Origin: Favolaschia claudopus
Taxonomy: Eukaryota; Basidiomycota; Agaricomycetes; Agaricales; Mycenaceae
Length of the DNA: 64,000 bases
Reading direction: 5' to 3'
Assembly: GCA_037176885.1 (NCBI GenBank)
Contig: JAWWNJ010000052.1
Coordinates: 1,178,001-1,242,000 of the forward strand
The notes below the pieces were generated by a model, which did not search any database, had not been told where the DNA came from, and saw only the letters and a list, made by a program, of their open reading frames with translations. Below are positions 15,575 through 56,199 of this stretch, in pieces. The translations under genes were made by a program, and so were the position numbers. Numbering within the stretch: position 1 is the first letter of the stretch; the number at the start of each line of letters is the position of its first letter.

Positions 15575-15679
15575 GCATAACAAACCTTCTATTCGACTCT
15601 GGCACTCTCCTAGCCCCAGCCGACCACCCTACTTCCTACTCTGCCCTCATCCTACCATCGACCTTACACCTCCCTTGCT

Positions 15680-16726
15680 ATGGCAACCCCCGCAGTTCCT
15701 CAGGACCTTTATTCCTACTGCACTCTCCTTCGAAGCGAACTACAGCGCGTCCACGACCGTCTTGATCGTCTTGAGTTTGGGGACACTGCAGCCTCTACTC
15801 CCCGAGGGCATGCCTGGCGCTTCTCCTGGGATGGCGCTCGCTGGGGCTCTGAACCTTCAACCCCAGCCCCTACCCCTGCCATCATCGCTGTCGGCCACAC
15901 CACCATACCACTCGCCGAAACCCTCCCTACTGCACAGGACGCACCGTCCCGCTACTCGTGTACGCTTGTGGTGCCTGACTCGGTCGTCGGGCATATCGTT
16001 GGCCGTGGTGGTAAGGGTCTTCATCAGTCGCACGACATCTCCGGCGCCCAACTTCGAGCCTATACTGATAAGGCTTCCCCCTTGGAGCGCCGTGTATCTA
16101 TCCGTGGTACCGACCAGCAAATCGGTGAAGCGCTAATTGCGCTTGGGAAGCGTTTCATGCGTAAGCGTATCCGCTCTAAGAAGAAAGGTCCGTCACGCCT
16201 TTCCGGGGACCCTGCCCCTCCCCCTCCTGGCCCGGTGCCAGTTTTGCCGAACGCTTCTGGCGAGGGCGCTCGCCCGCTGAAGAAGCGCGCACACCCCGTC
16301 CATCCGTCTCAGCCACCGGCTCCGGTTCCACCCCCTCCAGCGGCCAGTGCTCAGCCGCACCCAGGTGCCGCTACACAGCCAAGGAAGTCTGGGGTGCGAT
16401 TTGCACCACAGGAGTCTTCCTACCCCGCCTCTCACTCCCTACCCCATAACCCTGCCATCATCTCTATTCCTACGCAGGTAATGACGTCCCCAATTCCTAC
16501 TCCCCGCCCCAGCTCTACTCCTTATGCCCCCTCGGTGGCCATGCCCACTGCCGTCCCGTCCCCCTCTCCACGTTCAGTAGCTCCTTCGCCTATGGCCATT
16601 GATGCTATTCGACCTGAAAGGGGGTGTCGACCACAGACGGCACGGCGAGGTGGTGCAGTGTCTGCGTCAGATTCGCGGATTGACTCCCAGGGCAACCTAC
16701 TCTTCCGTGGCGATCCAGGATTTTGA
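15680..16726 (+). CDS. KH-domain Gag-like protein of LTR element
   Basis: This 348-residue ORF starts at the first ATG of the internal region. Residues 1-40 form a short predicted coil (LRSELQRVHDRLDRLEF). A KH RNA-binding domain spans about residues 95-165: the hydrophobic strand SCTLVVPDSVVGHIVG, the signature loop GRGG, then a helix and a variable loop with SIRGTDQQIGEALIALGKR, followed by a basic stretch (KRIRSKKK). The remainder is Pro/Ala/Ser-rich and disordered. The KH fold binds single-stranded RNA or DNA, so the protein could act as a Gag-like nucleic-acid packager; this is inference. No CCHC knuckle, protease or RT is present. The reading frame is open and the LTRs identical, so it may be functional. 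Confidence 0.85.
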   Translation: MATPAVPQDLYSYCTLLRSELQRVHDRLDRLEFGDTAASTPRGHAWRFSWDGARWGSEPSTPAPTPAIIAVGHTTIPLAETLPTAQDAPSRYSCTLVVPDSVVGHIVGRGGKGLHQSHDISGAQLRAYTDKASPLERRVSIRGTDQQIGEALIALGKRFMRKRIRSKKKGPSRLSGDPAPPPPGPVPVLPNASGEGARPLKKRAHPVHPSQPPAPVPPPPAASAQPHPGAATQPRKSGVRFAPQESSYPASHSLPHNPAIISIPTQVMTSPIPTPRPSSTPYAPSVAMPTAVPSPSPRSVAPSPMAIDAIRPERGCRPQTARRGGAVSASDSRIDSQGNLLFRGDPGF

Positions 16727-30525: not shown

Positions 30526-31770
30526 CATGTTATTTGACGGGAGTTCAATCTGGAACGAGTTATTTCCGAAGTCTCGGATAATAAGGTAAGGCTCAATGAA
30601 TTTTGGGATAAGCTTGCGCGCCAAACCCTTCTCAAATTTGAGATTCTTCGTCGAAAGGTAGACCAAATCTCCGTTAGAAAATGGTGATGCTTGCCTGCGG
30701 CGATTAGCATTCCGAGTTTGTTTGACCCTGGCGGCAAGAACTGCATCGTGTGCAGCCATAATTGCTAGACGGCGCTGCAATGCAAAATTAGCTATGCCCG
30801 GGTATTCTCGGGAACGGTCTGAATCCCAAATTAATGAACGAGGCATGCGTCCATTATTCAAGAAGAACGGAGCATAGCCCGTTGTTTCGGATCGAGCAGA
30901 GTTCATCGCGAACTCGACAGCTGGTAATTTGGACACCCAGTCTTTCTGCTTGTCGCCTATACACTGTCAAATCATCTGTGTGACAGTACAATTCGCCCGT
31001 TCAGTGCTACCATCTGTCTCCGGATGATAAGCACTGGACATTCGAAGCTTAGTTCCAATTAGTTCATGGAGACGGCGCCAAAAGTTACTTGTAAAAAGAA
31101 CATCTCTATCGCTCACAATAGATTTTGGCAGTCCGTGCAATTTATAGACATTCTCGAACATTAGTTCGGCCATTTGCTTCGCAGTGTAGTTGATGCGACT
31201 GGGAATAATATGTACCATTCCTGTTAATAAGCAAATTACAACAGTAATGGAATTGAACACGCTATCGCGGTTCTTAGACTCGGGTAAAGGTCCCACAAAG
31301 TCTACTCCGATTGTTTCCCAAGGCTGAGTGGGAGGATTAAGCGAATGAAGCAACCCGTAAGGTTTTTGATTGTTTGGCTTACTATCTTTGCAAGTTTTGC
31401 ATGAATCGCAATATATCTGCGTATCCTGCACCATGTCCTTCCACCCACCAGACATATTCCCGAAGATACTCGGTTGTTTTTCGAGGCCCCAGATGCGCCA
31501 GAACGGAGTGAGCTTCCGAAATAATGATTTCCCGAATATTTCGATTTTGGTACCACCTGAAGAATACAAAGCACTTTCCGGTCATGTTCACACAGGAAAA
31601 CAAGCCCGTCAGAAACTTCGAAGTTCTTGAAGGCTTTCGGAGTTGCCAGAATGTCCTTGAAGAATGAATCTTCTCCGTATTTGTTTTGCAAAAACTTGAC
31701 CAGATCAAGGCCGTCAGTCCCTCCAGAGACCACAGGAAATATTGAAGGATCCATATCCTTGAGTTGTTGT
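30526..31770 (-). pseudogene. gypsy integrase
   Basis: Read from about 31620 downwards: an HHCC zinc segment (HSVLAHLGPRKT, then CDSCKTC), the catalytic core with VDFVGPLPES (first Asp), SDRDVLFTSNFW (second Asp) and HPETDGSTER (Glu in the family position), then EFAMNSARSETTGYAPF and SNGDLVYLSTKNLKF. Two frame changes (near 31560 and 31420) and a stop near 30960 break the frame. DDE integrase of the LTR element, inactive in this copy. Confidence 0.85.
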
Positions 31771-34121
31771 TCAAGCTCCGAGAGCGTAGGTGGACGAGGA
31801 GTCAACGGCGCGAGAGGCGGAGGCTCGTCAGAAGCGGAAGACGGAGAAAAAGATTCCGTTGATGCCGGATTTGCTTCCGGGATCAAAGTTTGATCACCGC
31901 TGTCAAACGACTTTGCCTTTGACTTCGCGTCGGTGCCTGCTCTTGACTGCACGTCAGAGCTGCTTGACTTCGCGTCAGCTGTTCTCAATTTCGTTTGGGT
32001 ACTCCCGCCCTCTTTTGCTTCTCCTGTAGAAGCAAATTTCTTCTCGTTTGCAGCACGAGTCATCGACCTCAAGACACGACTTTCCTGGGTCTGTTTTGCC
32101 TTAGCGAGGTCCTGTTTCTGCTTCTGCTCAGCAGCCTTAGTTGCAGACCTCAAGACACGGTCGCTTGCCATCGCTTTCGCTTCTGAACCCGCAAAAACCG
32201 GCATGGAAATGGAGTTGATATTAAGTGCATCATTGTCGACCACATCATGGTACGTGTATTCGCTTCTTGCGCGAACAGTTCCGGGCGCCTCATTCGAGTA
32301 TATGCGAGATAACGCATCCGCAAGAACATTCTCCGTTCCAGGAACATATACAACCTCAAAATCAAATTCTGAAATCTTTTCCATCCATCGAGCTTGTCGT
32401 CCTGACAAGTTCTTCTGGTTCATGAAGTGAATAAGACCCTTGTGGTCTGTTATCCATTTAAAATGGAATCCCTGCAGTATGTCACGATGCCGTAGCATCG
32501 CTTCAACACCTGCTAACATCTCAATCTCATGCACAGGATAATTTTGCTGAGCCGAGTTGAGTTTCGCACTGAAGAATGCGGCAACTTTCGCTGATTTCCA
32601 ATCAGCGCCTTGGCTCACAACTCCAGCAATTGCAGAGCTTGATCCGTCTGTTACAAGAAACGCAGGGTCCGCATCAGGTCCGTATTTTAATGGAACACGA
32701 CGATGATCGCGAGACTGATGGATGATGCATTTGCAGTCCTCAAAAGCCCTTTGCTGAGCATAACCCCAGCGAAATGGCACGGTATCTCCAGTTAATCCGT
32801 AGAGAATACCCATCGGTTCACGAATACGAGCCAAGTCATCGGCAAGATACCCAATCGAACCCAGGAATGCGCGCAGTAAGTCCCGATTAGTTGGTGTTTT
32901 CCAATTTAAGACGCTGTCGACTTTGTCAGGATCCATTCGGATACCGTCATCGTCAACAATACGACCGAGAACCTTCATTTCTGGCTTCAGAAATTGAAGC
33001 TTATGCTCGCTGAGGTACAGTGTCTCGCGTTTTAATATGTCGATAATCGCCTTGACATGCTTGATGTGCTCATCTAGCGATTCAGAATAGATGATCATAT
33101 CGTCAAGATATACATCCATAAATCTCCCAATGAAATCCGAAAAGAGATAGTTCATTAAAGATTGGTACGTCGCCGGCGCATTACAATCGCCTATCTGGAT
33201 TACCAGACTGACCATATTCCCATCAGGAGTAGTTACCGTGGTACGGTCAACATGCTCGGGAATAATCCGAATTTGCTCATAGGCATCCTGTCCGTCAATT
33301 AGAGACCGATATTTACACCGAGCAACTCGGCGCAAAATACCTTCCATGTCCGGAAGTGGAGACGACAATTTGTGAGTGTTCTTTTTGCGGGCTCGCAACG
33401 GCGGGTTTGTTTTTGCTTTTGGAATTAATAGCATGGGAACAGTATTCCCCGAGCTGGTCACTTTCCAGCGCCCAGTCTTCAAATAATTCCGGCGCTTCTC
33501 ATCCCATTGAGGGCGAAGAGCCTCGGGACACCGAGACGGTCTCCGCGGTAGGATCTTCGTCTTATCAATGAGAGGAATTGTGTGATTGATTGCGCGCAAA
33601 GGCGGCAAAGATGTTTCCGCAGCTTTCTTGCAAATCGGCTTTGCGTATTCAATCAACTCATCCCGAGCAGATTGAATTGTATGGCTCTCCAGCTCAGTCG
33701 AGTGAGAGTAAATTTTCGCAGTTGCGACTCCCGAAATTGGTAAGCATTTCGCACTACCGACACAAACTCGAGCTGGATTGAACCCAATATTAACCTGATG
33801 TTGAAACAGCCAGGCTGTCCCCAGAATCAAGTCGTATCCGCTTACATTTGCGATGTAGAAGGTGCGAGGACAACTGATGTCCTGATATTTGAAACTAACT
33901 TCGACAGAATGGTTAATCTTCGACCTTGAGCCCTGAACGGCAAGTTGGAGAATAATTGGTTCGTCCAATTCTCTTCGTTTTAATTGAAGCTGATCTGCCA
34001 GGGAAGTAGAGATCAGATCCCCAAGCGAACCCGAATCCACCAACGCGTGAGCTGGATGTCCGTTGATGTGCACCACAATAATAAGTGGTTTAGCGACGAT
34101 TTTGTCGGGAACTCGGGGCAA
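31600..34121 (-). pseudogene. gypsy protease, reverse transcriptase and RNase H
   Basis: One open frame of about 840 residues holds an aspartic protease (ALVDSGSLGD near 34040; GYDLILGTAWL near 33830), the RT palm (SLIDGQDAYEQI near 33290; YLDDMIIYS at about 33090-33115 with the catalytic DD), and RNase H (LVTDGSSSAIAG near 32645; ITDHKGLIHFM near 32430; LADALSRI). The linker towards integrase is Ala/Lys/Ser-rich and repeats VLRS(A/M)T(K/R)AA. Domain order PR-RT-RH-IN is that of Ty3/gypsy. The frame is intact here but lost before integrase. Confidence 0.93.
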
Positions 34122-35576
34122 GCAAGCGGTACGAGTTATTCCTCAGAGGGAATTTGAATTCCTCCGCAGTACAATGTTGAGTACGCGAAGTTATCGCCAA
34201 TTTTACGTTACGCGAGCATATGCAACAAGTAGGACAACCTCGGTAGTGCACTTGGTCTACCTAGTTGCAATTCAACTGCTTCGCGTTCGATTTCAATAGA
34301 TTGAATTACTTCAAACAACCGAACTTCCTCCTCCGAGTAGCTCGTCTCAAAGAGAAGATAAAGATAACCGAAACCGTCTTCGTTCTCGAATGTGTTCCAA
34401 CGAACACTTTGTTCAAGTTCAATTTTACCGCGTTTGCGGCGGATCCAATTGATGAAATTGAATCTCCAGTTCAATAGACAGTCTTCGGGTAAGTCTAACT
34501 GCCAGCGACATCCTCGCTTTTTAGTTCCTGACACGATATAATGTCCAGGAAGGTGCTTGCGGACACGGTAAGCTGAAACTTCAGGATACTTTTCAACCCG
34601 TTCATTCAAATATTGATTTGCTCCATTACAGAGTAAATCGTCGAGAGGCACCTGATGGAGGGGACGAGGAGCTTCAGCTGGTCTATCCAGTTAATAAAGA
34701 CGCTCTTTAGCGTACCAAGCCGCGAGTTCGAATTCTTCATTGAATAATTGACCTTTAGGTACAATGGTGATTTCGTCGAAATATTCATCCCACACGGTCC
34801 ATTGCAAGTCTACGACTTGATCCAAGTAAAAGCGACGGTTTCCCCGGCATGGTCTGTCTATTTCAACCAATTCATCGCCAGGATATGGCTGAAGAAATTC
34901 AAGGACGGCACAAGCGCCCTCCGCAACCAGATCACCGATGCGATCCGTTCGAAGTCGTTTATTTTCAAAACTTGATGATGGAACATCTTGTAAGTTGAGG
35001 ATCTGTCAGAGGAGATCCAAACGGTCATCCAGTGTTTCTCCTGGATTCCCTGAAAAACCCAATCCTGAATTAATCGCAGGTTCGTCTTCATCATCAGACC
35101 AATCAAACTCATCAATTTCAGAGTCCGAGTCGCTAACCGACATTAACTCTGGTAAATCCGAGTAGTCAGACGTCGTTACAGTGTTCTCTTCTTGACCAGG
35201 TAGGTCCTCCAGCTGTTCTGATTCGAATTCTTCTTCAGATTCAACAGAAAATCCGGGAATTTCAAAGCAACGAGGAAGATCAAAATCTTCGTCGTTTGGA
35301 TCCGAGTCAGACTCGTATTCTGAATCACTCACTTCAAATAATTCAGGTAAGTCGGAGAATTCATCATCCGACTCGCTGGGTTCATATCCTGAAGAGGAAG
35401 AAGTCTCTGAATCCGAAAACGAGTCCGAACCAGCAAACGTCCGCAGGTACCACGCGGAAAGATCAAAGTCTTGATTTTGCAAGTACTCCTTCGGCAGTAG
35501 CTGCGGTTCAGCGTTGCAAAACAAGCTTATAAGACTCGACTCGAATTTGATTATCTGCAATTGCAGGAGTATTAAT
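34122..35576 (-). pseudogene. gypsy pol N-terminal linker, acidic
   Basis: Between the gag part and the protease lies a frame from about 35576 with NAEPQLLPKEYLQNQDFDL followed by a Ser/Asp/Glu-rich acidic region (35050-35450), and a second block (YRVRKHLPGHYIVSGT..) at about 34300-34620 in another frame. Such linkers are common in mushroom gypsy polyproteins. At least one frame break near 34650-35000. Confidence 0.65.
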
Positions 35577-39470: not shown

Positions 39471-40215
39471 CCCGCGGGAATGCAAGAGGTCGAGAATATC
39501 GTTAAGCGTGAGCAGGGATTCGTGAGGCGTGTCGACTACGTGAATTGTGGTGGTGGTGGTGAAGGCTAGCCGAGGAGAAATGCAGGAATTTTCGAATTGT
39601 GAAAGTGAAGGATGTATTCATAATAAGGTTGCAGGGATTCATATGTGCGCCGAGGCAACTGTATCAGCGTCAATCGGGTAGCATAAACGTTCCAGTGAGT
39701 CGTGAAATGAGAAATGGCGCCAGAGCGTCGCCAGCTTCAGAGATATGGCAGCAGATCCGGAGTGGAGGCCTCGAAGGCCTCGTCGAGGGGGGGAGTGATA
39801 TGTTTTGGAGGTGAGACATAGGTCAGGGGTACGAGTCGGGGAGGATGGTTGAGAATGTAGGAGAGGTCAGTGAATGTAGACTGTGTGGGACTTGTCTGTG
39901 CCGGGGGGGAAGTTCGGAAGACCACAGTCTGTCGAGCATGAAATTGAGTGCAGGAAGGCCTGGCGTCGGCGAAAGCTTAGATAGGAGTACCACGGAAAGG
40001 GACCTGGAGGCTGAAAAGATCGAGGAAAGAAAGAGAGAGCAGAAGAAGCAAAAGTGTCGTGAATGATGAGCTCTAGCGAGGTGAGAGAGGGTGAACGGGA
40101 AGTCGATGGTGGTGGTAGAAGAAGAGGAGAAGCTCGGATCAGGTCACATCAGATCGGCCCCTCTCTGCTGCATCACAAAACGGCACACTGTCTTCCCAGG
40201 CTCAGACAGTGTTTC

Positions 40216-41176
40216 TTTCTGAATCGACATCCTTCAAGATAAATGTCGCCATTGTGGCGTACAAATCTTCAGATTCAGCGGTAAATCGATCTTCCCATTC
40301 GACATCATCGGGATCTAACCCAATTGCAATCTGGCGCTCGATAGCATACCAGAGACCAATTTTGAAGTCTTCGTCAAACAGAAATTCCATCGGTAAGATT
40401 ACATCTTCCGTCGTAACATTGTCAATGACAACATATTCAGTGGCCGATGTTTCGTACACTTGGAATCGAGATTCCTCTTGAATCTGTTCGTCTCCAGGGT
40501 AAGGCTGAGCCTCCTGTAGCACAATGCGAACGAATTGGGCCGCTAAATCACCAATACGTCGCGGTTTTTCCGGGTGAGAGTTGACAGTTTCCAGAATTTT
40601 CGAGTCCTGGTTCCCGCCCTCCTCGACTTCCATACGGAAAGCCGCAGACACTACAGGTAAGGTTTCTAATACTTCAGTCGATGCTGAAAGTGCTGATTCA
40701 TTCGCAGTACGCATTCGTACACCATGCGCGCCAAAACCCGGAGGTTTTCCTTTCTGATTTGAATTCATGCTCGTCAATTTAGGACAATTGCGAGCCATAT
40801 GGCCTGGTTCTGCACAATTTAAGCACAGGCCAGCAGCCATTAGTTCGTTACGGCGTTTGATCGACATTTTCCGATCATCAAAGGTTCGTTTACCCCTTGA
40901 CTGGTTGTTCGTTGAAGCCCTCGGCTTATCCGAGTTCGGTTTCTCTGAATTCAACTTCACAGAGGAAGATTGAATCGAAGGCTTCTTGAAAAAGCGACCA
41001 CCACGCCCACGATTAGGGTTCTTAGATGATAAGTTAGAAGGTTTGCTTGCGCTTGCCTTCGGCTTATCATCCTCAGGTCTATAATTACCAAGCAACTTTT
41101 CAGCATGCTCGGCTTCAACAACAACGTCGTCCCAACTTGAAACCTCAGGATCAAGCTTTTGGCGGGAAAAGTCCAT
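40216..41176 (-). pseudogene. gypsy gag C-terminal part with CCHC knuckle
   Basis: The frame (from about 41176) begins in the distal capsid (LDPEVSSWDDVVVEAEHAEK), continues through a Lys/Ser/Asn-rich basic region and holds one zinc knuckle CLNCAEPGHMARNC (near 40800-40840), the nucleocapsid signature. An acidic stretch ends at KDVDSE, where the large insertion interrupts it. Confidence 0.9.
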
Positions 41177-44000: not shown

Positions 44001-44204
44001 AAAGAAAAGGAAGGAAAAAAGAGAAAAAGAGGGGGAAAAAGAGAGTTCAGGAACCTACCTGTGTCATGTACAGTTGATTTTCCGAGCAAACAACCTCTCT
44101 GAATGCAGCACTGTGGCGAATCAAGCTATGAGAGTCCTAGTGCTGTGTAAAATTGCTCCCCGGCCATGTAATTTACTGTAAGTACAAAGCGGGCCCAGAG
44201 AACA

Positions 44205-44767
44205 GGATAATTCTATTTGGGAGCCCCAAACTCTCGGGGCTTCTTTGGGAGCCCCAAGTTTTTATGGGGGGCTCCCAAATAGAACTTTTAAAGATAGTCG
44301 CTAGATCAACAGAGATGAGATTACAATAGCAAATGCATTCAATCTACAACGACTCGTCTACGTTTTCGGGGAGATAAAACCAATCCCACTTCCGCTAAAT
44401 GCCGTTTCTTCTTGTTCTTGGGGGGCATCCGAGTCTTCGGCGCGGGCCTTTGCAGCCGCACTTGAGTTCTGAGAGGTTCTGAGCCATCGCTATCTTTGCG
44501 ACCTTCCCTTCCACCGCTCCAAGCACCTTGCTCCCAAGTCCCTGTTTCTCCACCCCCTTCGCCTTGAGCTTAGTTGCGATGGAGAGAGCGTGACGGCGAA
44601 GGCAGGGTGAAACTTTAGCCAATCATGGCAGATTAGATTGCGGCGAGACGATTAGAAAAGATAAGGAAAAGATAAGAAAGAGTTGGTCACGTGGGGGCTC
44701 CCAAATAGAAAGATTCTATTTGGGAGCCCCTTAGCCGAGAGTTTGGGGCTCCCAAATAGAATTATCC
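44205..44767. mobile_element. MITE with hairpin-forming ends and 9 bp TSD
   Basis: Exact TSD CAGAGAACA at 44196-44204 and 44768-44776. The TIR starts GGATAATTCTATTTGGGAGC and the 33 bp inverted match runs to CTCTCGG. In addition, each end itself folds: CTATTTGGGAGCC recurs inverted ~50-60 bp inside (44268-44285, 44696-44730). A 9 bp TSD fits Mutator-like elements. It interrupts the left TIR of the large element. A minus-strand ORF of 75 codons (44395-44622) has no recognised motif. Confidence 0.92.
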
Positions 44768-44776
44768 CAGAGAACA

Positions 44777-45408
44777 TATGTAATTTACATGTAAATTACA
44801 TGTAAAATTCAAAATTCCCACGCTCCCAGGGTCTAAAAAAATCTCGTTTTCGCTTGCCGAAAATTGGGCCGATCGGTGCCGAACGATTGATCTGGAACAA
44901 ATGCACTGGAATTGGATTTCAAGTTGCTCTTGAACCTGTTTTTGAAATCCTGAAGGCTGATTCCTTTGGTGGCCGGTACCGGACAAAATAGCGGTTTGCA
45001 TCTGTTTCCTCGCCGATCATCACGTTTCCCCATCATTCCGCACGATTCCTTCCCATTCCTCGTCGATCCTCAGCTTTCCTCACAAATCCCTACAAATCAT
45101 CGCTGGTCCTGAGGATTTCCCAATGAATTCTGTATTTCCACGTCTTAGCATTCAACTTTGCATCCTCAGCATTCCTAAGGAATCCGGCCCATTCCTGCTT
45201 TTTCTTGAACTCTGTTTGAAGTTGACATTCTGACTCGTTTTGAATTTGAACTTGCATTCATTGCGATTCCTCATCATTCCCAGCTGATCGAGATCAGCAC
45301 CCGTGTCGTCATCTTGGTGTTTTTACACGGTTTCCAGCTCCCAATCCTCTTTCTTCCTGACTGTCTTGTGCGCATTCTGCCGGATCTCTAGTAGCTCTAC
45401 TGGCTCGT
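44777..45408. repeat. left subterminal TIR region, ATTCCT-rich
   Basis: No gene here. The sequence contains TGTAATTTACATGTAAATTACATG and numerous (C)ATTCCT words which are mirrored inverted at 55680-56160. It also serves as upstream region of the DDE gene. Confidence 0.65.
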
Positions 45409-47208
45409 ATGAACACTGACCAACAACTGAGCAACCTACGAGACGCCTATCACGCTCTTCACAACGATGTTCTCTCAGCTCTGCGCACTATGGTTGGAGA
45501 TCCACCGAGCTTGAATGCTGTTCGAGACAGGGCACTGGCGTTAGCTTCGGCGGCAGAGATGGTAAGAATGGCACCAATACAATTCGCTTTGAATGCTAAT
45601 AGCGTCCATTAGCATCGAGCTGTTTTCCCCCCAGACGAGTATGCTACTCTTCAAACATCTATCACCGACATGGTCACAGCTCTTGATCTTGCTTGCCACG
45701 ACTCGATGGACCCACCTGATGCTGCCCCTCTGACTGTCGTTCATCGTGTTCGTACTGGGCGACGAGGCCGGCCGCGTGTTGAGATTGATCCCCAATTTTT
45801 GAGCGCCGCCCTCGATCTTCGTGGTCCGACCGGAATTGCTCCTGAAATTGGTGTTTCAGCTCGCACTGTTCGCCGTGCTGCTCTTCGAGCTGGACTAGTT
45901 CAACCCGGCGCTCCTGTGTTTCAATCACGAACAAACCCCAACGGCGAACTCGAAGTCGTTCATACCTCGACAGCACCGCCTGTCTCTGTTGTCTCAAACG
46001 AAGAGCTTGATCGACTTCTCTCGGAGACGCTGGAAGTTTTCCCTCAGTTTGGGCGTCGTATGATTCGCGGTCATTTGAAATCCCAAGGGTACCGCATCCC
46101 CCGGGATCGGATCACTGCCTCGTACTTGCGTGTACATGGTGCTCCCGCGATCTTCGGTGATCGCCAGATCAGCCGCAAGAAATATCGCGTCCCTGGACCG
46201 ATGTCACTTGCCCATCTTGACGGTCAACACGGTCGGTTCCTTTGTGAATTTTAATTTATTTAGCTGAACCTTGCATCCCAGGCCTCATTCGCTACAAGAT
46301 TGTCATTCACTGCATCATTGACGGGTATTCCAGGTTCGTGCTCGGCATTCGCGTGCACAACAACAACCGTGGCGCAAGCGTTCTACGCCTCCTGCTCGAT
46401 GTGATTGCTCTCCATGGTTGTCCCAGCCGTATGCGAGGCGATCACGGTGTTGAAAACATCGAAGTTGCGGCATATATGGAACGGGTCAAAGGATCTGGTC
46501 GAGGCTCCTTCATCTGGGGAAGGTAAGTTGAATTTCTGTGCGCACAATTTTCACTCAGCTCTTTGTTTCAGGAGTGTTCACAACACCCGCATCGAACGCC
46601 TATGGTACGATGTCACCCATGGCTTCGGCAAGAAATGGAAAGTTTTCTTTCTTGATTTGGAAACTAACCACGGCCTCAACCCCACGCGCCCGGGCCATAT
46701 ATGGCTCCTTCATCATCTATTCCTTGCGTCGATCAATCGCGATGCTCTGGACTGGTGTGAAGCCTGGAATTCGCATCAGCTTACGGTACGCCGCCAACGT
46801 GAACGCAGTCCACGCGATCTATTCACGTTCGGGATGTTGCGGGAGGGTCCACGGGGGATATCTTCCTTCTTGGCGGCTGAGGACGAGGAAATTGAAGATA
46901 TCAATGAGTACGGGATCGACTGGGAGGCGAATGCGGAGCCGGAGTTAATGGCTCATTTGTTCGAGAACAATCCAGACGAGCGCACCAACAACACTGACCC
47001 TTTTGCGTCGTCCAGCACCCCCGCGAACCTCTCGGAAGTTTTGTGCGAGCCCCCTGGATGTCCTTTTACTCCTAGACAGCTTCAGCTGCTTGACCTGCGA
47101 TTAGATGCGTCAGTCGATCTGTTCTCGAGAAACATGAACGTTCGGCGATTGGTTTGGGTTCGTGCATTGCAGATTGCTCAGGAGATACAACAGGGAAGCG
47201 TACAGTAG
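45409..47208 (+). CDS. integrase-core (DDE) protein, 4 exons, apparently intact
   Basis: Exons 45409-45561, 45613-46231, 46282-46522 and 46572-47208; introns of 51, 50 and 49 nt with GT..AG ends and conserved phase. The protein is 549 residues. Residues 1-100 are helical; about 115-150 form an HTH (GRPRVEIDPQFLSAALDLRG, GVSARTVRRAALRAGL) as in IS3/rve-type transposases. A second helical DNA-binding block (FGRRMIRGHLKSQGYRIPRD) precedes the catalytic core: LDGQHG (first Asp), YKIVIHCIIDGYSRFVLG (strand pair), MRGDHGVEN (second Asp), and HNTRIERLWYDV with the Glu. The C-terminal half contains the conserved W-rich QLTVRRQRERSPRDLF. All three carboxylates are present. It probably mobilises the surrounding inverted-repeat element; this is inference from position. 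A decayed relative lies at 4530-6174. Confidence 0.9.
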
Positions 47209-48179
47209 GTATTAGATGAAACAGTCCAATAGAATATACAGGCTATCGGATCGAGTTGATAAGCGTCCGCATCTCAACGAAGCAGAAGCGTAGAATATTG
47301 GTGTTCAATCGTAATTATAGAGTTAACAGAATAACTCATAATTCAACACTGCACAACGACTGGCAAATCCGAAATGTTCTGTTATATTAGACGACTCGAG
47401 ACTCCTCCGATACTCGACTTCTGTTCATGACTTCAAATCAATTCGAGTACAATCCCTGATCGACTTGATCTGTCTTTCCAATTATTTTGAACCGATTTCT
47501 TTCAAGCACTCATCAGAACACGTTGAACAAAATCATTGATAAAGGCAACACACTTGAAAATAGTGAACCAGCGCTCCAAATTTTCTTTCTCTCTGTCGGT
47601 CAGTCCTGATTCCCCGCCGACCCGAGCATCTATTCAGAAACGCTCCCTTTTGCTAACGCGTATGTAATATCATTCTTGGGGTAAAATTCAAACAATCCCC
47701 TTGGACTGAAGGCCTCTTTCATGCCGGTAACATCAAAAACAAGTCCTATAGAATGTCATCAATCTTGGGGCTCATAAATGTTGGAAGGTATTGAGTGTGT
47801 ACCTTTCAGAACAACAAGGATCCGGGCACCAGACTCGTATTCATCATCTGCTGTTAGGTCAGCGAGCGTCATTGTGGGGAGAGCCTCATTATGTCGAGAT
47901 CCTGGTTGACAGGATTGGGAGGAATCAACAGTGGGAGGTTCCGTCTGCTAGAGACATGACGATCTAGAGGAGGAGGAGAGATAATTGGGAGACGACGCCG
48001 AAATCAGATAAGTATTTATGTACCTCGGACCCGGGGCGCCGGATAGCCGGTGACACACCGTCACGTGAAGTTGATCTTCTTCCTTTCTCCCACCACCTTC
48101 TCGACGTTCTCCTCTCCGTCTCTGCCTTCCCTCACTATGCCCGAAACCCAGGGAATCTAAAGCGTCATTCTTGGCTGCT
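47209..48179. other. intergenic, no supported gene
   Basis: No coding signal is recognised. CACGTG occurs at about 48063, and a pyrimidine-rich tract (48080-48135) precedes the next start codon, as usual for fungal promoters. Confidence 0.35.
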
Positions 48180-50398
48180 ATGAAGCGTCCTCAAAGAGCT
48201 CCTTCAGGCCGTATTAAGCTCCAACTGCTCGGCATCGACATCGACGCGACTGAAGCCGAAGAGACCAAGTTTCCCAAAGGCCATCCTGCTTCCCTCGGTT
48301 TGCCTTATCAATTGACTCCACCTGCACGGTCAAGCGTGGCACAACTTGTCTCAGGGCCTGTTTACCCTCCGAAGTGGCACACAACCAAGGCTGCCGGACC
48401 TGCCGATCCGGACCCGCTTACCACTCACGAACTGAAGGATCTATCATACACATACCGGTCATTGATCCTGGATCTTGGAGCTCTTCACCTCAGTGTAACT
48501 ATAGTTGTTTCTCTGTCGCCCTCTCTCTTAATCCTTAATTCTATAGATTCAATGGCTCACCCATACCTCTGCGCTGTCTGTTCGCGTTCGGACTATGAAT
48601 CGACCATAAGTTTGTACACAAAAAGGTGTGTGATATTAATATGCAACTCATTGATCCATTGCTGAAGTGGCCCAGGTTCGGCGAGCGCGGGTCGGCCTGG
48701 CGCTCGTGTTTGAAGACATGTTCTTGTATTTTTGAGCTCTGATCTTGTCTTTCAAGTGCGTTGTTTTCTTTCTAAATCTATTGAGCTGATCAAACACCCA
48801 GCCAAAATGGGCGAAGTCTCGCAGCGGACTTGCCTCCCCCTCCACCCGACTTCTACAGTCCCAAGTGGTCTTTTCTTGCGGATTTAGCGAAGTGGATCCG
48901 CAAGCGCGTCAACTGTGATCGGAGCGGCCTAGCATGCGAGGTGATGCGAGCGAACAACGAAACCTTCCCCGGAATTGGGGTGTACACCGTTGTCGAGTTG
49001 TTTTTCTTGGCTGGTGCGATAGTGTTGAATCCTTTTTTCTCATCTTGCTCACCGTGTTGACAGGTCTCTCGATGCAACTGACTGAGGCGGAGGTATTCAC
49101 CAACCCTTCTCGCACAGCCCGCATTGCGCTAGCGTATCTCCAGTTTCTCCATCGCTCGAAACCGGATTAGAGTGCGCCGATTTAATTTTATTGTCAATCC
49201 CTGTAAATTGTTGAACTTAATTTCTAGGGAGCTGCTACGACCCGCTCTTCACGACGGTTATCTTGCTCCCACTAAACAGCAGCGGCTAAAATACCTGGAT
49301 TGGCTGCATGTCTACGCCAAGGATCGCACTCGGCTTCCCGAACGAATGGCTTTCCTCGTCGACGAGTATAAAGTAAGGTCCTCGTTGTTTCATTTCATCT
49401 TCACCTCACCACCATTCTCTAGGCCAAGATCGTTGAGTTATCTGCCGAAGATCTGTGGATCCGCGACGAAAACACAACCCTTCACGATGTTTTTGAGCCA
49501 TCCCTTGTCTCGGTTGGTCTTCAGCTCCCTCATACCTCGGCCACCTCGTTTTTGGCCGGGGAGGCATGGATTGCAATGGGAGGTACTCTTTCAGACGAAT
49601 CTGACCCGCTCACTGTTCTATATGCCGACGAAGGGTACGTTTCGAGTTTGGTTTCTGCCTGTCAAGATCTGATTATGTTGTAGAACTGTTGGATTCACCG
49701 ACGTTCTTACGCCCAAAGCATACAGTCCGCTGTTCTTGGCGAGTAGTGATGCCAGCGCTCCTCTATCTCTTCCTCGCCGCCACATCTACACCTATAGAGG
49801 GCAAAGAAACAATTGTGGTCGATCACACCATTTCCACAAACTCTCAAGGTTGCTCCGATACTCGGTGCGCTTCATCTATCTAGTTTTATTGATATCTGAC
49901 CCGTTTCATTGTCCTGTTAGCGACAAGATTGTTCCGACTGAGATCACGGGTGTTCCACGACGTCGCATGCTTTTCTCTTACATCGTTCAGCAGACTCGTA
50001 AGGTTGCTATTGGACCCCTTGAATACTGCGGAAACGCACACCTTGTGCGCATTGGCAGCTCTGATGTGTACGTTGAAGTGGTCTATTGTCCTCAAATCTG
50101 CTCACAATGTTTGATTCAGAGTCGTTCCGTGCTATGGCGATCCAAATCTGCCAGAGTACTATGCCATTCGCGATCTAAAGAACCGTATGCTTCCTCCTGT
50201 ACTGCCGGAGCGCGTCGTGCCGTGCTGACTTCGGAGGAAGCGGCGAGTCTTCATGATGAGATTGAGGATATGGGAAAAGTGTGTCAAGAAAGCGGGCGCG
50301 CGATGGTGATGGAGAAAACGAGCCGGAAAAAAGTAGTGCACGGAAGCCCAAGAAGAACGACTCAGCGCAGACAAGCGACTTGCCACTTATGCCTATAA
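48180..50398 (+). CDS. uncharacterised multi-exon gene in large element
   Basis: The first exon appears to be 48180-48494 (MKRPQRAPSGRIKLQLLGID.., 105 codons) with an intron 48495-48546. The next ~700 bp cannot be resolved with confidence, though VAQVRRARVGLALVFEDM (about 48670) and LTEAEVFTNPSRTARIALAYL (about 49085) look coding. From 49230 exons are clearer: RPALHDGYLAPTKQQRLKYLDW, intron 49373-49422, AKIVELSAEDLWIRDEN, VGLQLPHTSATSFLAGEAW, a further intron near 49636-49682, VGFTDVLTPKAYSPLFLASS, intron about 49864-49919, and EITGVPRRRMLFSYIVQQ. I recognise no known domain. The gene lies between the DDE gene and the repeat array, transcribed in the same direction as the DDE gene. The stop position is tentative. 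Confidence 0.5.
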
Positions 50399-50785
50399 AC
50401 TAGTTCCAATTCCGATTCAATGTGATATGAATAGTTTTAGATTTATTCCAAAGCAAAGTGTGTTCATGTGTTGTTAATAAGCAGAGTATACAGTGTATGA
50501 GCCTTGTAAACGAACATCGGGCATACTGACACAATTTTGATAGGGGGTGGCTTGACACCCTGACCTGGACTGCAATATTGATCGCATCAACTGTTGCCGG
50601 TGGATTCCGAATATTTGAACTAGTCTGTATTCTCGATTCTGTAAACTAGCACACATCTAATTGCTCTACCTGTACCTTCTAAGCACCCCAGGTGTCAGAG
50701 GAGATGAAGTGCAGTCAGTTTCACATTGTTTTGATGACGCAATAAACAAGCACAAAGTTCAACACGGCTTGTATCACAGTCGTTA
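50399..50785. other. 3' flank, no gene
   Basis: No coding region seen between the multi-exon gene and the degenerate repeat array. Confidence 0.3.
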
Positions 50786-51945
50786 TAGAGAGAATACTTC
50801 TATGGCTTGCAATATTCTTATTGAATACCATGGAGTCCTTTCTGTATGCTCAGATATCACTAGGTGCCCAATCCCATCCAGTGAAATCACACTTTCCCGA
50901 GTTGTTGAGCATATAAATATATGCAGAATCGAAGCCGGTTGTGCGCAACAGCAGTAACAGAGAGAATACTTCTGGGATAGTATACAGCTAGATTTGACAC
51001 TATATAACAGGAATACACAGTCGCCTATCATTAGACGTTCAATCCCTTTCAGTGAAACCACATTTTTCGGAACCGCCAAACAAGCACACATACCGGAAAA
51101 GGAAATTAGTTTTGTACAATGGCGGTGACATAGAGAATACTTCTAGGATGGTAGTGAGGCTCATTGGACACTATATAACAGGTCTATACATCCGATTCTC
51201 ATTAGGCGTTCAATCCCTTCCCGCCAAATGATACTTGCTCAACCGGTTTGAATGTACCCGAAAAGAAAGTTGGTTTGCGCCACGGCGGCAAACACGGAGA
51301 ATACTTCTTGAAGGCAGCAGGGAGAATACTTTTAGGAAAGAGAGGAGGTTCATATGACTCCATATACGCGGATTATGCACCCCAGTTTTCATTAGATGCC
51401 CAATCCCTTCCCGCTGAATCGCACTTTACCGAGCTGACGAACCATACCCGAATGTCTTTCGAAACAATTCAATTTCCCAGTATTCTGAGATGGATTCCGC
51501 TAGAAATGTTATACCAGTATATTTACGCTCAAAGGAGTGTGGATGCTCAACAGCAGCTTCCTGAAAGGATCTGTCCCCTGAATTACAGACTCATGATCTT
51601 CGATGCTCTAAGGCAGTCAAAAATTGTGATTTTCTGTGCTGTTTCAATGAAGAAATTGTGAACTAAGTGAGGGATACGACAGAGCAACGGTGCTTTTATG
51701 AATTATAATCTTGATAGCTTATTCTGATAGTACGGGGACAAAAGTTCGAACGAAGGAGAGACGCGGTCACGTGACCGCGTCCATGTCGCGACTCGCTGAT
51801 GTCTGACAGCGGTGGGATAGAGAATACTTCTGTGCTGCTTCAGACATTCTTCAGAGTCATAGAAGAGGTCTATAGTCCCAGATCTCACTAGGTGCACAAT
51901 CCTTAGAGGGAAATCACACTTTTCCCGCTTAGGGGGGCGAGATAG
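50786..51945 (+). repeat. degenerate ~165-175 bp tandem array
   Basis: Units start with GAGAATACTTCT (50789, 50961, 51133, 51297, 51322, 51827) and carry, ~75-110 bp later, (T/A)GG(T/C)G.(C)CAATCC followed by AAATCACACTTT or a variant. Spacing is about 165-175 bp for the first units, then looser. Text before each start (ACAAGCACA..AAAG..GGCGG) is also shared. Units are 60-75% alike, so the array is old. It lies at the 3' sides of two converging genes inside the large element. Confidence 0.75.
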
Positions 51946-53942
51946 ATTTTGGCGCATAGCTCAAGGCACAGGTACTACAACCGTGAGTGGCCCATCGCGG
52001 CAGACTATAAGACAGTGATTTGTACAGACTCAGTTTCGCTTTCACCGCCTTCACCTTTGCCCTGATCGTGATCGCAATCCCAGAGCCACCTGCCCGATCC
52101 AGAGATTGTGCGATATGTGAAGTAGCCAGAGCAGGGGCAAAGCACACCTCCAAGAATCGCCGCAACGCATTCTCTTTTAGCTCGTCTACAGTGGATGCAG
52201 GAGTGGTGCTGGAGTTGTGTCGATCCTGTAAATACATCAGCGTAGCGCGGGCATCCCGGGTGAATGTTTTGTTGTTTCCGTAAGTGGAGAGCTTTAATGC
52301 AGCCCAAAGCGGAACTGTGTCCGTGATTTTGTAGTCGTCGGAGGTTGGAATCCCTGAACCTCTCGCGCGAGCAATGACATCCTCAACAATGAGAATTTGT
52401 CGAATTTGGGTGTATGCGGTTCCAAATTTCGGGTGGGACCCGTCGTCCTCCAACAGAGTCGAGAGTTGATATGCTTCGGGGAGAAAATGCTGGTCAAGCG
52501 CCGCGCTCACCAAGGCAAGATTGGCTAAGCAGCGCTGGACAATCAGGGGTGGTTGCGGCATCGGTGTTCTCGAGGTTGATCGACTCGCTGGACGACTGTT
52601 CTCCAATGGTACTGGAGTAGCGGAGGAGCTAGATGGAGTAGGTGTGGTGTGATACTGAAGACAAATCAGGTCAGATGAGTAGCGAAATCAGAATAAATGC
52701 ACACACCCGAGGGAAGACATAGAGCACAAAAAAAGATGTAGCTTCGGCAATGCCACGAATGCGAAAGATTTCGTGGCTATTAGGTGTATGAGCGGCTCGA
52801 GGCGCAATGACTGTCACAGAAGAATCGAGGTGGGAGCGCAAAGACCCCTTTTCGGAGTAGGTATTTTGGAGCATACTAAAAGTGGGATCCTGGACTTCGA
52901 TTAATCGCTGTGAGCACGCGATACAAAACTCGGTGCGATCCAGCTGATGGCAAATGCTATTTAACATCTCTGCTGCTGTGCCGCTACCGTCACATATCGC
53001 GCGGATGAGATCCCTCAGTGACGGAGCCGAGGGAAGATTGCTGACGAGTTCCAGGAAGCTGCACTGAGCAGGATTCTCAGATGGTAGACCGAGATAGACA
53101 GGGACCTGAGGTTCAGTTGCCAATGGGGAGGGACTGACAGCAGGGGGAATAGGTGGGGCAGGTGTGCGGCGCAGACGTTCACGCTCCCGCAGAGCGGCGA
53201 GACTCCCGTTTCCCGCTCTGGAAGGCGGTGCGACTGCGAGAACTGGATTTGGGTTGACTGGTGGGAACAGCTGGTTCAGATCGGAATCGGATTCGCGGCG
53301 CGTTGATGGGAAATCCAGTGCGATTGGAGAGCCCGTTGTAAGGGGAAATCCGAGCGAACTACTCGCAAAAGAGGTTGAACGAGAAATTGGATAGCGAGCA
53401 CGCGGAGAATGAACAGTAGGGGAATGATGTGAAGTCGTGTCGTGGATATGAGCGCCTTCGGCCGGAGAAGGATTGGTTGAAATTGGCGCCAAGGGGTAAG
53501 ACGGTGAGCTGGAGAGCGCATTCTCAAGAAAGTCCAGCCCAGGTGCGGTCATGAAGTGATGAATGCTGGCCTCGACCTCTGGGTTCAAAGTGACAGTGAG
53601 ATCTTCGCCCATAGCCTCCTCAGGCCAATTATCAAAGTCCAACTCGCTTTGTGAGTTGTTAAAAAACAGCTGACCAAAAATAATGTGGCACGCACGGTAC
53701 GGAATCTCCTGCCTCTGAATGCTCGACAACCACTTCCATGTTATCATCGACCTCATCTATTCCAACTCAGAAATGAGACAAATATTAACGCAAGTTGATT
53801 TACCCTCCACTTGAAGAACAGAGCTGAGCTCGTCTGAGCGTAGGCGATAATGAGGGGTACGAGATCGTTGTGGCAGGGGGCGAACTGGAGATGGAGCCTC
53901 TCCATTGAGCCGGCGACTGTGTCGGGTGGGGGCTTGGCTCAT
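51929..53942 (-). CDS. uncharacterised agaricomycete-type protein, 4 exons
   Basis: Exons on the minus strand: 53942-53804, 53756-53701, 53642-52707 and 52654-51929, with introns of 47, 58 and 52 nt; the joined frame gives about 618 residues. The N-terminus (MSQAPTRHSRRLNGEAPSP) is basic and disordered, with an acidic patch (DEVDDNMEVVVEHSEAGDS). The middle is Ser/Pro-rich (about residues 120-260). The C-terminal 250 residues look folded and helical: LVSNLPSAPSLRDLIRAIC, FCIACSQRLIEVQ (a single CxxC), LANLALVSAALDQHFLPEAY, RARGSGIPTSDDYKITDTV and ALRRFLEVCFAPALATSH. No domain is recognised. It begins 130 bp after the stop of the next gene, same strand, so the two might be one transcription group. 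The stop lies in the last unit of the repeat array. Confidence 0.7.
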
Positions 53943-54074
53943 TGCGCACAGTGAAGAACACTCAAAGACGATTATATAGCAGTACTTGAAGTTTTCACAC
54001 CAACGGTGAGCCCTGAAATCGCTTAAATATTTCAAATGAGCTCGGGTAAAGTACCGAAACATCGTAGCAGTAAT

Positions 54075-55574
54075 CTACGACGAAGTGTAGGCATTCTGGG
54101 AAGCCAGAAGTTGAGCATGAAAGAGGCGACCAAATGTAGTGTCCTTCCCTGCCTCCGCATTTTCTGAGATGAGAAGGTGGCGAAGACGAGCGTTGTTGGT
54201 GATAGAGAAAGTTTTGAAGCAGGAGCGGAAGTCGATGACGACGTCTGGCCCGAAATCGTCATTGCCCGCCGCATCAACGGTCGGGTAGGCTTCGGAATAG
54301 TCATGTGTGATGAGGCACTGTGACAAAGAAAATAAATATTGGAACAGTTGTTCGAAGGCAAAAATTGCTCACCTTGATTCTCCAACCCGCACTAGGGATA
54401 GTAGCAGTAAGAGCTGGGGCGACGTAATCGATGTTGTTGGTAGCACAATGATCCCGAAAAGCAAGCTCGATAGCTTCAAAGATTGGTCCGGTCGTTGAAA
54501 CGTCGACGGTAAAAACTAGGCCCGCAGTTTTGAGAGTAGTTTGAACGTTTTCAATCTCCTCTGCGCTCTTCCAGAAAAAACGCGGAGAAAGATCGAGGGT
54601 GTCGTTAAAATCCGAGGTGTCGAGCTAACAAAAGCAGGGTATAGATATAAATGCATAAGTAGGCAATTAAAAATCGAAACGACATTTGCGCACCACTTTA
54701 GGCAAAATACCGCACCAGACAATCGCCGAGGTCGGAGCAGTCACCGCTGCAAAGTCGTTCAATGCCGGGATAGAAGCCGAGGTTTCCGTGAATGAGCGAG
54801 GCGGACCAGACTTGCGCTTCTTCTTCGGAGATGTGGGAGAAGACGATGTAGCCAGGCTTGAGGAACCGGCAGCAGACCCATGCAAGTTTCGTTGGATTGA
54901 AGCCTGACGCGCCTGTTGTACCGAAGCAGTCGATGGCCGAGCAAGACCGGTGAAAGCGGTGACTGGGCGATGAGGAACACCGATAGAGGAACTGGCTCCG
55001 GCAGAAACAGAGGTAGAGACGAGACCAGATGGGACAGGAGCAGGAGCGGATGTGTTGGAGGTGGTGGAGGGCAAGCTTAATTAACGGATCAACAACCAGT
55101 GATTGACATGATGACGAAATGCGCACCTCGACGACTGAGTGAGTTGAGCGTGTGCCGACCATTTGAGACCACAGATACAGGCCAGATGCATAGTCCAAGT
55201 GGTACTTGTCTTGAAATCAAATCAATCACAACACCGTTTCAAGTTCGCAATACGAGGTAAACACACCGAAAAGAAGGCAGCGCAGCGGCCATCACTCGTT
55301 CCGCCGCGGGCAAACATCTGATTTTGTTCAGTCAAAGACGAAGCTTGAACAACGTGAGTGATCCAAGGGTGGCCACAGATAAAGCAGATGGTTTCCGGAT
55401 TGTCAAAGTCCTACAGTTTTTGAGTTTCGATAGAGTACCGTAAGCATAAAAAAAAGGACACACAGCATATTTTGGAGTGCCGTCGGGGTTTTCGGCGACA
55501 AATCCGAAGCAGGTTTGAACGCAGTCAGCAACGATACAGGCTCCGCGAGAAGGAAGCCGGAAATTTAGACGCAT
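54075..55574 (-). CDS. fungal-specific protein with CxxC/H zinc-type motifs
   Basis: Starts at 55574 (MRLNFRLPSRGACIVADC). Exon 1 55574-55464, exon 2 55410-55267, exon 3 55204-55127, exon 4 from about 55075, with further introns near 54690-54630 and 54368-54320; end at 54075. The N-terminal 85 residues have spaced Cys/His: C..C..C, then ETICFICGHPWITHV and RCAAFFS, a zinc-binding arrangement common in mushroom-specific proteins. A Ser/Ala/Pro-rich region with KKKRKSGPPRSF (NLS-like) follows. The C-terminal part has SPRFFWKSAEEIENVQTTLK, GLVFTVDVSTTGPIFEAIELAF and FGPDVVIDFRSCFKTFSI. The exon 3/4 junction is out of phase in my model, so a frameshift or missed splice site is possible. Function unknown. 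Confidence 0.65.
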
Positions 55575-55679
55575 TATTGAGATCAGTTGTGTTTGAGGGG
55601 GAAATTAGACGACGCAGTTTGCTTTTCTGGGCAGTACTTGAAGGCCATTCTCGGTACGGCATTCAAGCTCGGATAACCG

Positions 55680-56169
55680 GATAACGAAATCCGATCAGCA
55701 GGATTCCTAAGGAATGGCGAGGAAAGCCAAAGTCAAACAGTGACAGCGATTCGGAGAAATACAATGTATTGGGAATTCCTCAGGATTCCGAAGGATTGAT
55801 TCCTGAGGAACTCCCTGGCTATCCTTGTCATTCCTTAGGATTTATCGGGAGAGGCTTCAGGAATTTGAAGGAATCACTCAGAATGCCGAGGTTTCGGAAG
55901 GATTTGCACGGAGTTACAAGGAATATCAAGGATCTGTAGTGATTCATATGCAAAATAGGTCAGGTACAAAGTCAAATGTTTTTTGTCCAATGGCGGCCTT
56001 CATAGATTCCAGCCGTTTTTGAGCGCTTTTGAGCTCCTGCCTCATTCAGTATTTTACGCTATTTTACATGGAGGTTGAGACCCTGGATGTAAATTACGTA
56101 TTTTACAATGTAAATTACACGTAAAAAACCCGTGATGTAATTTACATCGGGCAATTTTACCCAGCACTA
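55680..56169. repeat. right subterminal TIR region, AGGAAT-rich
   Basis: Dense in AGGAATC/ATTCCTAAGGAAT words, then GTAAATTACGTATTTTAC and GTAAATTACACGTAA, closing with GCAATTTTACCCAGCACTA. It is the inverted, diverged counterpart of 44138-45250. Confidence 0.7.
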
Positions 56170-56199
56170 TATGAGACGCAAGCCTCGGCTGTTTTGATG

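Follow-up and report, generated by a model that had tools for sequence, protein, structure and literature searches.

An 11-kb IS3EU-like DDE transposon with a recurrent cargo gene set, nested in a short inverted-repeat element of Favolaschia claudopus

The genome assembly of Favolaschia claudopus, an agaric of the Mycena group, comprises 264,566,041 bases in 460 contigs. The region described here, hereafter the window, is a stretch of 64,000 nucleotides on contig C52 (JAWWNJ010000052.1, positions 1,178,001 to 1,242,000 of the forward strand), from whose first base all coordinates are counted. Between 44138 and 56169 it contains a DDE transposon of 11,040 bp (44965..56004, plus strand), whose edges are common to other copies in the genome and which lies inside a miniature inverted-repeat transposable element (MITE). 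The transposon carries a transposase gene and four further genes in a fixed order: the rva_4-type DDE transposase, a MAPR/cytochrome-b5-like gene, and genes 2, 3, and 4. An earlier note, made from the letters of this DNA alone, had proposed that 44138–56169 forms one unit of transposition with a DDE gene and fungal cargo. A unit of this kind is indeed present; however, its boundaries are 44965 and 56004, and it is nested in the MITE. Nested insertions, with an inner cut-and-paste transposon carrying a stable cargo kit, are most probably the correct explanation of the locus.

The edges of the inner transposon were determined with a query extended by 500 bp beyond the left edge and by 596 bp beyond the right edge. 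The left edge lies exactly at 44965 in eight of ten joined copies; of the exceptions, one at 44961 is a four-base chance match and one at 44991 is a copy interrupted at that point. The right edge lies exactly at 56004 in four copies. According to the junction sequence, the element is directly flanked by the 6-bp duplication GATTCC (44959..44964 and 56005..56010). Six of the seven copies inspected exhibit a perfect 6-bp duplication, which differs from GATTCC in the other five (CATAAT, AATAAG, CCTTTC, GACAAC, and TTTGCC), whereas copy C103 has none. All seven share the tips TTTGG...TCATA. The 5' tip (TTTGGTGGCCGG..., 44965..44994, plus strand) and the 3' tip (...GGCCTTCATA) are imperfect inverted repeats, with 18 identities over 30 bases, a value equalled by one of 20,000 random pairs. 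Adjacent to the tips are a left subterminal stretch rich in ATTCC (45000..45300, plus strand) and a right one with ATTCC/GGAAT in both orientations (55690..56004, minus strand, including the 3' tip). The first 400 bp of the element contain seven ATTCC and one GGAAT and the last 400 bp five of each, compared with 0.3–0.5 per 400 bp in the interior. These repeats had been noticed before but assigned to the ends at 44138 and 56169; they belong to the inner element.

The transposase gene (45409..47211, plus strand) is composed of four exons (45409–45561, 45613–46231, 46282–46522, and 46572–47211) and encodes 549 residues without an internal stop. Its product matches the Pfam family rva_4 (PF24764) at 5e-56 and rve at 6.7e-5, the latter under Pfam's cut-off. 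By inspection, the acidic residues are D254, D311, and E346 (D,D34E), in agreement with the four-exon DDE gene of the earlier note. A PDB sequence search with the transposase gave no result. The inner transposon has tips and a 6-bp duplication of its own, its transposase gene is intact, and its sister copies agree with it in tips and gene order.

The outer ends belong to a different and much shorter element. The inverted tips 44138–44156 and 56151–56169 are identical at 18 of 19 positions, and the near-duplicate flanks TATGAGAG and TATGAGAC are present, both as previously described. At least 41 matches to the 44138 end and at least 40 to the 56169 end occur in the genome, forming 21 facing pairs within 13 kb. 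Eighteen of these pairs are spaced by 387–420 bp, one by 598 bp, and one by 1,711 bp; only the pair in the window is spaced by 12,032 bp. A typical short copy corresponds to the window segments 44138–44204, 44766–44964, and 56005–56169 fused to each other. From end matches and short copies, the host MITE consists of a left part (44138..44964, plus strand), which is split by a 563-bp insert, and a right part (56005..56169, plus strand). With both inserts removed, it measures 414 bp and agrees with three other copies at 409, 406, and 408 of 414 positions (409 with copy L012). Perfect 8-bp duplications, seven of them distinct, surround nine of 14 MITE copies tested and are absent from five; the 14 were taken from 20 MITE loci, the remainder being single-ended or overlapping copies. 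Among the variants, L018 consists of overlapping MITE copies and L020 is a 1.7-kb form. By its 8-bp duplications and its tips TAGTG..CACTA, the 414-bp element appears similar to hAT-type MITEs.

The insertion of the MITE at 44138/56169 is supported by 27 unoccupied paralogous sites, because the flanks of this MITE are themselves repetitive in the genome and the sites can be read without the element: sequence matching the left side up to 44133 and sequence matching the right side from 56170 onward have the 7 bp TATGAGA in common, which is the empty site that had been suggested as a check. In 13 of the 27 sites, the alignments reach the edge on both sides, and in the other 14 the last 2–11 bases are extrapolated; the pairing used 29 of 40 left-flank and 27 of 40 right-flank matches, two of the 29 being unpaired. 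As the empty sites give it, the outer duplication is TATGAGAC (56170..56177), and its left copy (44127..44134) was changed to TATGAGAG, followed by TCC. The second insert in the MITE (44205..44767, plus strand) has inverted ends GGATAATTC../..GAATTATCC and is flanked by the 9-bp duplication CAGAGAACA at 44196–44204 and 44768–44776; it is a MITE of a different kind from its 414-bp host. It also holds inverted and internally repeated GGGGCTCCCAAATAGAA motifs.

MITEs frequently arise by internal deletion of larger transposons, and the similar tips could thus be read as those of a single 12-kb transposon with the ~414-bp MITEs as its internal-deletion derivatives, all the more as the MITEs possess both ends of the window unit. 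This explanation is nevertheless extremely unlikely. The join in the MITEs sits exactly on one GATTCC, the very sequence that is duplicated around 44965–56004; copies of the inner unit elsewhere begin at 44965 and carry different 6-bp duplications; a single pair of outer ends reaches 12 kb; and the duplications are of unequal length, 8 bp outside and 6 bp inside. On these four grounds, 44138–56169 was rejected as one transposon. The bounds of the gene-carrying unit are therefore not those of the earlier note, which had tied the genes to the outer ends: at other loci, the outer tips enclose none of these genes, and the unit with the genes is bounded by tips of its own, an outcome of the kind that the note had itself named as refuting its proposal.

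Next to the transposase gene, on the minus strand, lies a small gene (47465..47957) that had been overlooked. It encodes about 130 residues in copy C103 and contains indels in the window copy. Its product matches the MAPR proteins 1t0g_A (E 3.6e-8), 1j03 (3.8e-8), and PGRMC1 (4x8y, 4e-4) over the domain; unlike them, it is transposon-borne and scores 13 bits against Pfam Cyt-b5, below the cut-off of 23.7. It is thus a candidate haem-binding protein of the MAPR/cytochrome-b5-like type.

Gene 2 (48137..50403, plus strand) corresponds to the same-strand multi-exon gene that the first description had called unresolved; the gene is present, and its reading frame is obscured by frameshifts that, among seven aligned copies, occur only in the window copy. 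In copy C103, it encodes 619 residues. The predicted structure shows a two-domain Fpg/Nei DNA-glycosylase fold with an H2TH motif, and in a search of viral structures the top three matches are giant-virus Fpg proteins (two at E <= 0.001), whereas a PDB sequence search with the gene 2 profile gave no result. The protein starts with Met-Pro-Glu: Pro2 is found in 28 of 30 aligned sequences and Glu3 in 26, and 25 of the 30 predicted proteins begin with Met-Pro. In the structural alignment, residue 2 is placed on chain residue 2 (or 1, depending on the numbering of the entry). Pro2 and Glu3 are the N-terminal catalytic residues of Fpg/Nei glycosylases, a family that also has a conserved Lys in the N-terminal domain and an Asn in the H2TH motif. 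By our motif alignment, these two positions are taken by Arg107 and Val233 (28/30 each). Hence, compared with Fpg, MutM, and NEIL, the protein shares the predicted fold and the N-terminal Met-Pro-Glu but is double in size, lacks a sequence-profile match, and deviates at two active-site positions; because of Arg107 and Val233, it is referred to as having an Fpg/Nei fold rather than as a member of the family. The deviations, together with the finding that the gene 2 consensus shows no zinc-finger Cys pattern, would suit a noncutting relative that merely binds or recognizes DNA, for example as an accessory protein of transposition. Such a role is a serious possibility, albeit with less than even chances, as the conservation of the Met-Pro start, Pro2, and Glu3 at a dN/dS of 0.06–0.09 would be odd if the proline were useless.

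A series of diverged repeat units (50951..51219; for example, 50951–51048 and 51122–51219) separates the plus-strand from the minus-strand genes, and beyond it the two minus-strand genes of the earlier description were found again. Gene 3 (51961..53942) encodes about 530 residues, its model being weakest at the 5' end. Gene 4 (54072..55574) encodes 1001 residues in copy C103, with a Cys/His-containing N terminus and a C terminus resembling a HECT C-lobe; the window copy lacks 2,405 bp of it at 54390/54391. The assignment of this C-terminal domain, perhaps part of a protein-tagging enzyme, is tentative. The HECT profile (PF00632) was not listed for any of 24 gene 4 members at E 0.1, and neither a PDB sequence search with the gene 4 profile nor Foldseek on the gene 4 model gave a result. 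A correspondence of gene 4 to the alpha-kinase of IS3EU elements in rust fungi was considered as well and rejected, since no alpha-kinase family was listed in a comparison made via Pfam.

The arrangement of these genes recurs throughout the genome. A census with five markers gave 71 units (70 clusters, one of which contains two units), and 29 of them possess at least four markers. In all 29, the arrangement runs from the 5' end through MAPR, gene 2, and gene 4 to the 3' end, with one marker absent from some units. It drew on 40 of 43, 40 of 40, 28 of 28, 40 of 40, and 37 of 39 matches, the five omitted being second pieces of listed copies; the copy numbers are lower bounds (about 40 candidates scored per search), and a marker missing from a unit may reflect divergence. 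Units with both ends measure 11.04–14.57 kb, except for C99 (8.26 kb) and C200 (16.8 kb, with two 3' matches). Homologues of the cargo are present in many Agaricomycetes, as would be expected of ordinary host genes trapped by chance between transposon ends. This is very unlikely, however, in view of the constant order in the 29 units and of the gene 2 matches, 26 of 28 of which lie in units with another marker. The same argument extends to Mycena species, in which at least six cases of a shared contig were found among the species–contig pairs listed, at the level of the contig and with no adjacency implied. Homologues of the transposase and of gene 4 lie on one contig in M. crocata, M. latifolia (87 kb), and M. 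capillaripes, those of the transposase and of gene 2 in M. albidolilacea, and those of genes 2 and 4 in both M. olivaceomarginata and Mycena sp. CBHHK59/15. The comparison covered 43 species–contig pairs for gene 4, 40 for gene 2, and 31 for the transposase (best 120 of 227 hits), with the longest contig per cluster.

The genes of the DDE element are under purifying selection. Between C103 and two diverged copies, dN/dS is 0.055 and 0.048 for the transposase, 0.064 and 0.087 for gene 2, and 0.088 and 0.11 for gene 4; the MAPR-like gene gives 0.18 against one of the copies and saturation against the other. The parts of the element do not always share one history. Compared with C103, copy C174 (L051–L052) is 75% identical in the transposase part, 95% in the part of MAPR and gene 2, and 69% in the right part; therefore, blocks of cargo seem to have been exchanged between element lineages.

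The window copy and copy C48 (11,041 bp) both lack, at 54391, a stretch of about 2.4 kb that is found in C103, C41, C200, and C124; as this stretch carries gene 4 exons, the short form is the result of a deletion. The two copies are identical over about 6.5 kb and differ only in the block of about 47.5–52.0 kb, in which the window copy shows 53 indels, mostly of one base, and 13 substitutions. Since the duplications of the two copies differ and their sequence is otherwise identical, the deleted form has moved recently, and the lost part of gene 4 is hence dispensable in cis. The number of differences from C48 could also be taken as true decay of gene 2 in the window. This is unlikely, because the differences are confined to one block between identical flanks and the indels of the gene 2 region are not shared by the six other aligned copies; the frameshifts rather look like assembly errors in an unpolished stretch. 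As the error-like one-base indels are limited to 47500–52000, in the middle of a repeat copy, any frameshift that this assembly shows in a young repeat calls for caution.

From these features, the following course of events is probable. A 414-bp MITE with 8-bp duplications first inserted into an older repeat, and the 563-bp element and, independently, the 11-kb transposon then inserted into the MITE. For the latter, an rve/IS3-like DDE transposase presumably cleaves at the imperfect tips and inserts them into a target cut with a 6-bp stagger, the ATTCC-rich subterminal repeats being putative binding sites of the transposase. The stable kit comprises the MAPR/cytochrome-b5-like protein, the Fpg/Nei-fold protein with its Pro-Glu N terminus, the gene 3 protein, and the Cys/His protein with a HECT-like end. 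The window copy is a recent derivative from which 2.4 kb of gene 4 has been deleted and which moved without that part. The most likely target of the gene 2 protein would be the element's own modified or damaged DNA: it may remove or recognize bases altered by silencing or by transposition. The cargo genes could aid the survival of the element in its host genome. A more far-reaching proposal is that of a self-protection kit of the Mycena group, in which an Fpg/Nei-type glycosylase would act on silenced copies of the element by excising modified cytosines or the lesions that arise from these, and a ligase of the HECT type would remove a host silencing factor. We regard this as speculative and rather improbable in its full form; if true, the kit would be an independently evolved, base-excision counterpart of the transposon-borne TET/JBP dioxygenases.

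Other reading frames in the window comprise a 946-residue frame with aspartyl protease, reverse transcriptase, and RNase H domains, resembling an LTR retrotransposon (31302–34142, minus strand), a 335-residue frame with a reverse transcriptase domain (11074–12081, plus strand), a 370-residue frame with a KH domain (15614–16726, plus strand), and a 324-residue frame with a zinc knuckle (40202–41176, minus strand).

No transposon with stable cargo of the Fpg/Nei-fold, MAPR-like, or HECT-like type was found in the open-access full texts searched, a scope outside which Repbase, subscription papers, supplements, and preprints lie; the term HECT has zero occurrences in PMC12730594. Within the open-access literature searched, the cargo set thus appears to be new. 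The family would constitute a second, unrelated set of DNA- and protein-modifying transposon passengers besides TET/JBP, and it would make testable whether a base-excision enzyme aids the escape from silencing or the completion of transposition. In addition, mushroom genomes encode unnamed "integrase core" and hypothetical proteins, some of which the family explains as products of mobile elements.

The earlier note had known of no large transposon with terminal inverted repeats (TIRs) built on integrase-core proteins. However, large IS3EU-type elements with additional genes are already described in rust fungi (PMC12730594) and as Styx (PMC10853768). IS3EU/GingerRoot elements are characterized by an rve-type transposase, 6-bp duplications, and TA..TA termini, with GingerRoot occasionally ending in TG..CA (PMC10045372). 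The inner element shares the type of transposase (rva_4 at 5e-56, DDE residues) and the length of the duplication (six of seven copies), whereas its termini are TT..TA in all seven copies. It is IS3EU-like and probably works as IS3EU/GingerRoot do; because the 5' tip is TT and not TA, it is not assigned to that group. Styx of Zymoseptoria (PMC10853768) likewise combines IS3EU affinity, 6-bp duplications, and an integrase gene with other genes, but it measures 7,927 bp with four ORFs (open reading frames), and its extra genes encode GATA, CCHC, and DUF3577 proteins. The IS3EU elements of rust fungi (Kojima 2025, PMC12730594) place TET/JBP between the transposase and alpha-kinase genes and have tips TAYGG..CCRTA with TIRs of more than 30 bp. 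They share with the present element the 6-bp duplications, the multiple genes, a DNA-modification enzyme, and another gene in opposite orientation; unlike them, it has the tips TTTGG..CATA with imperfect TIRs, and Fpg/Nei-fold, MAPR-like, and HECT-like genes replace TET/JBP and the alpha-kinase. The TET/JBP dioxygenases of fungal transposons have been proposed to act on the elements' own DNA and to counter methylation-based silencing (PMC12730594). Because the rust elements carry TET/JBP, a DNA-modification gene in an IS3EU-like setting, as gene 2 may represent, has a parallel.

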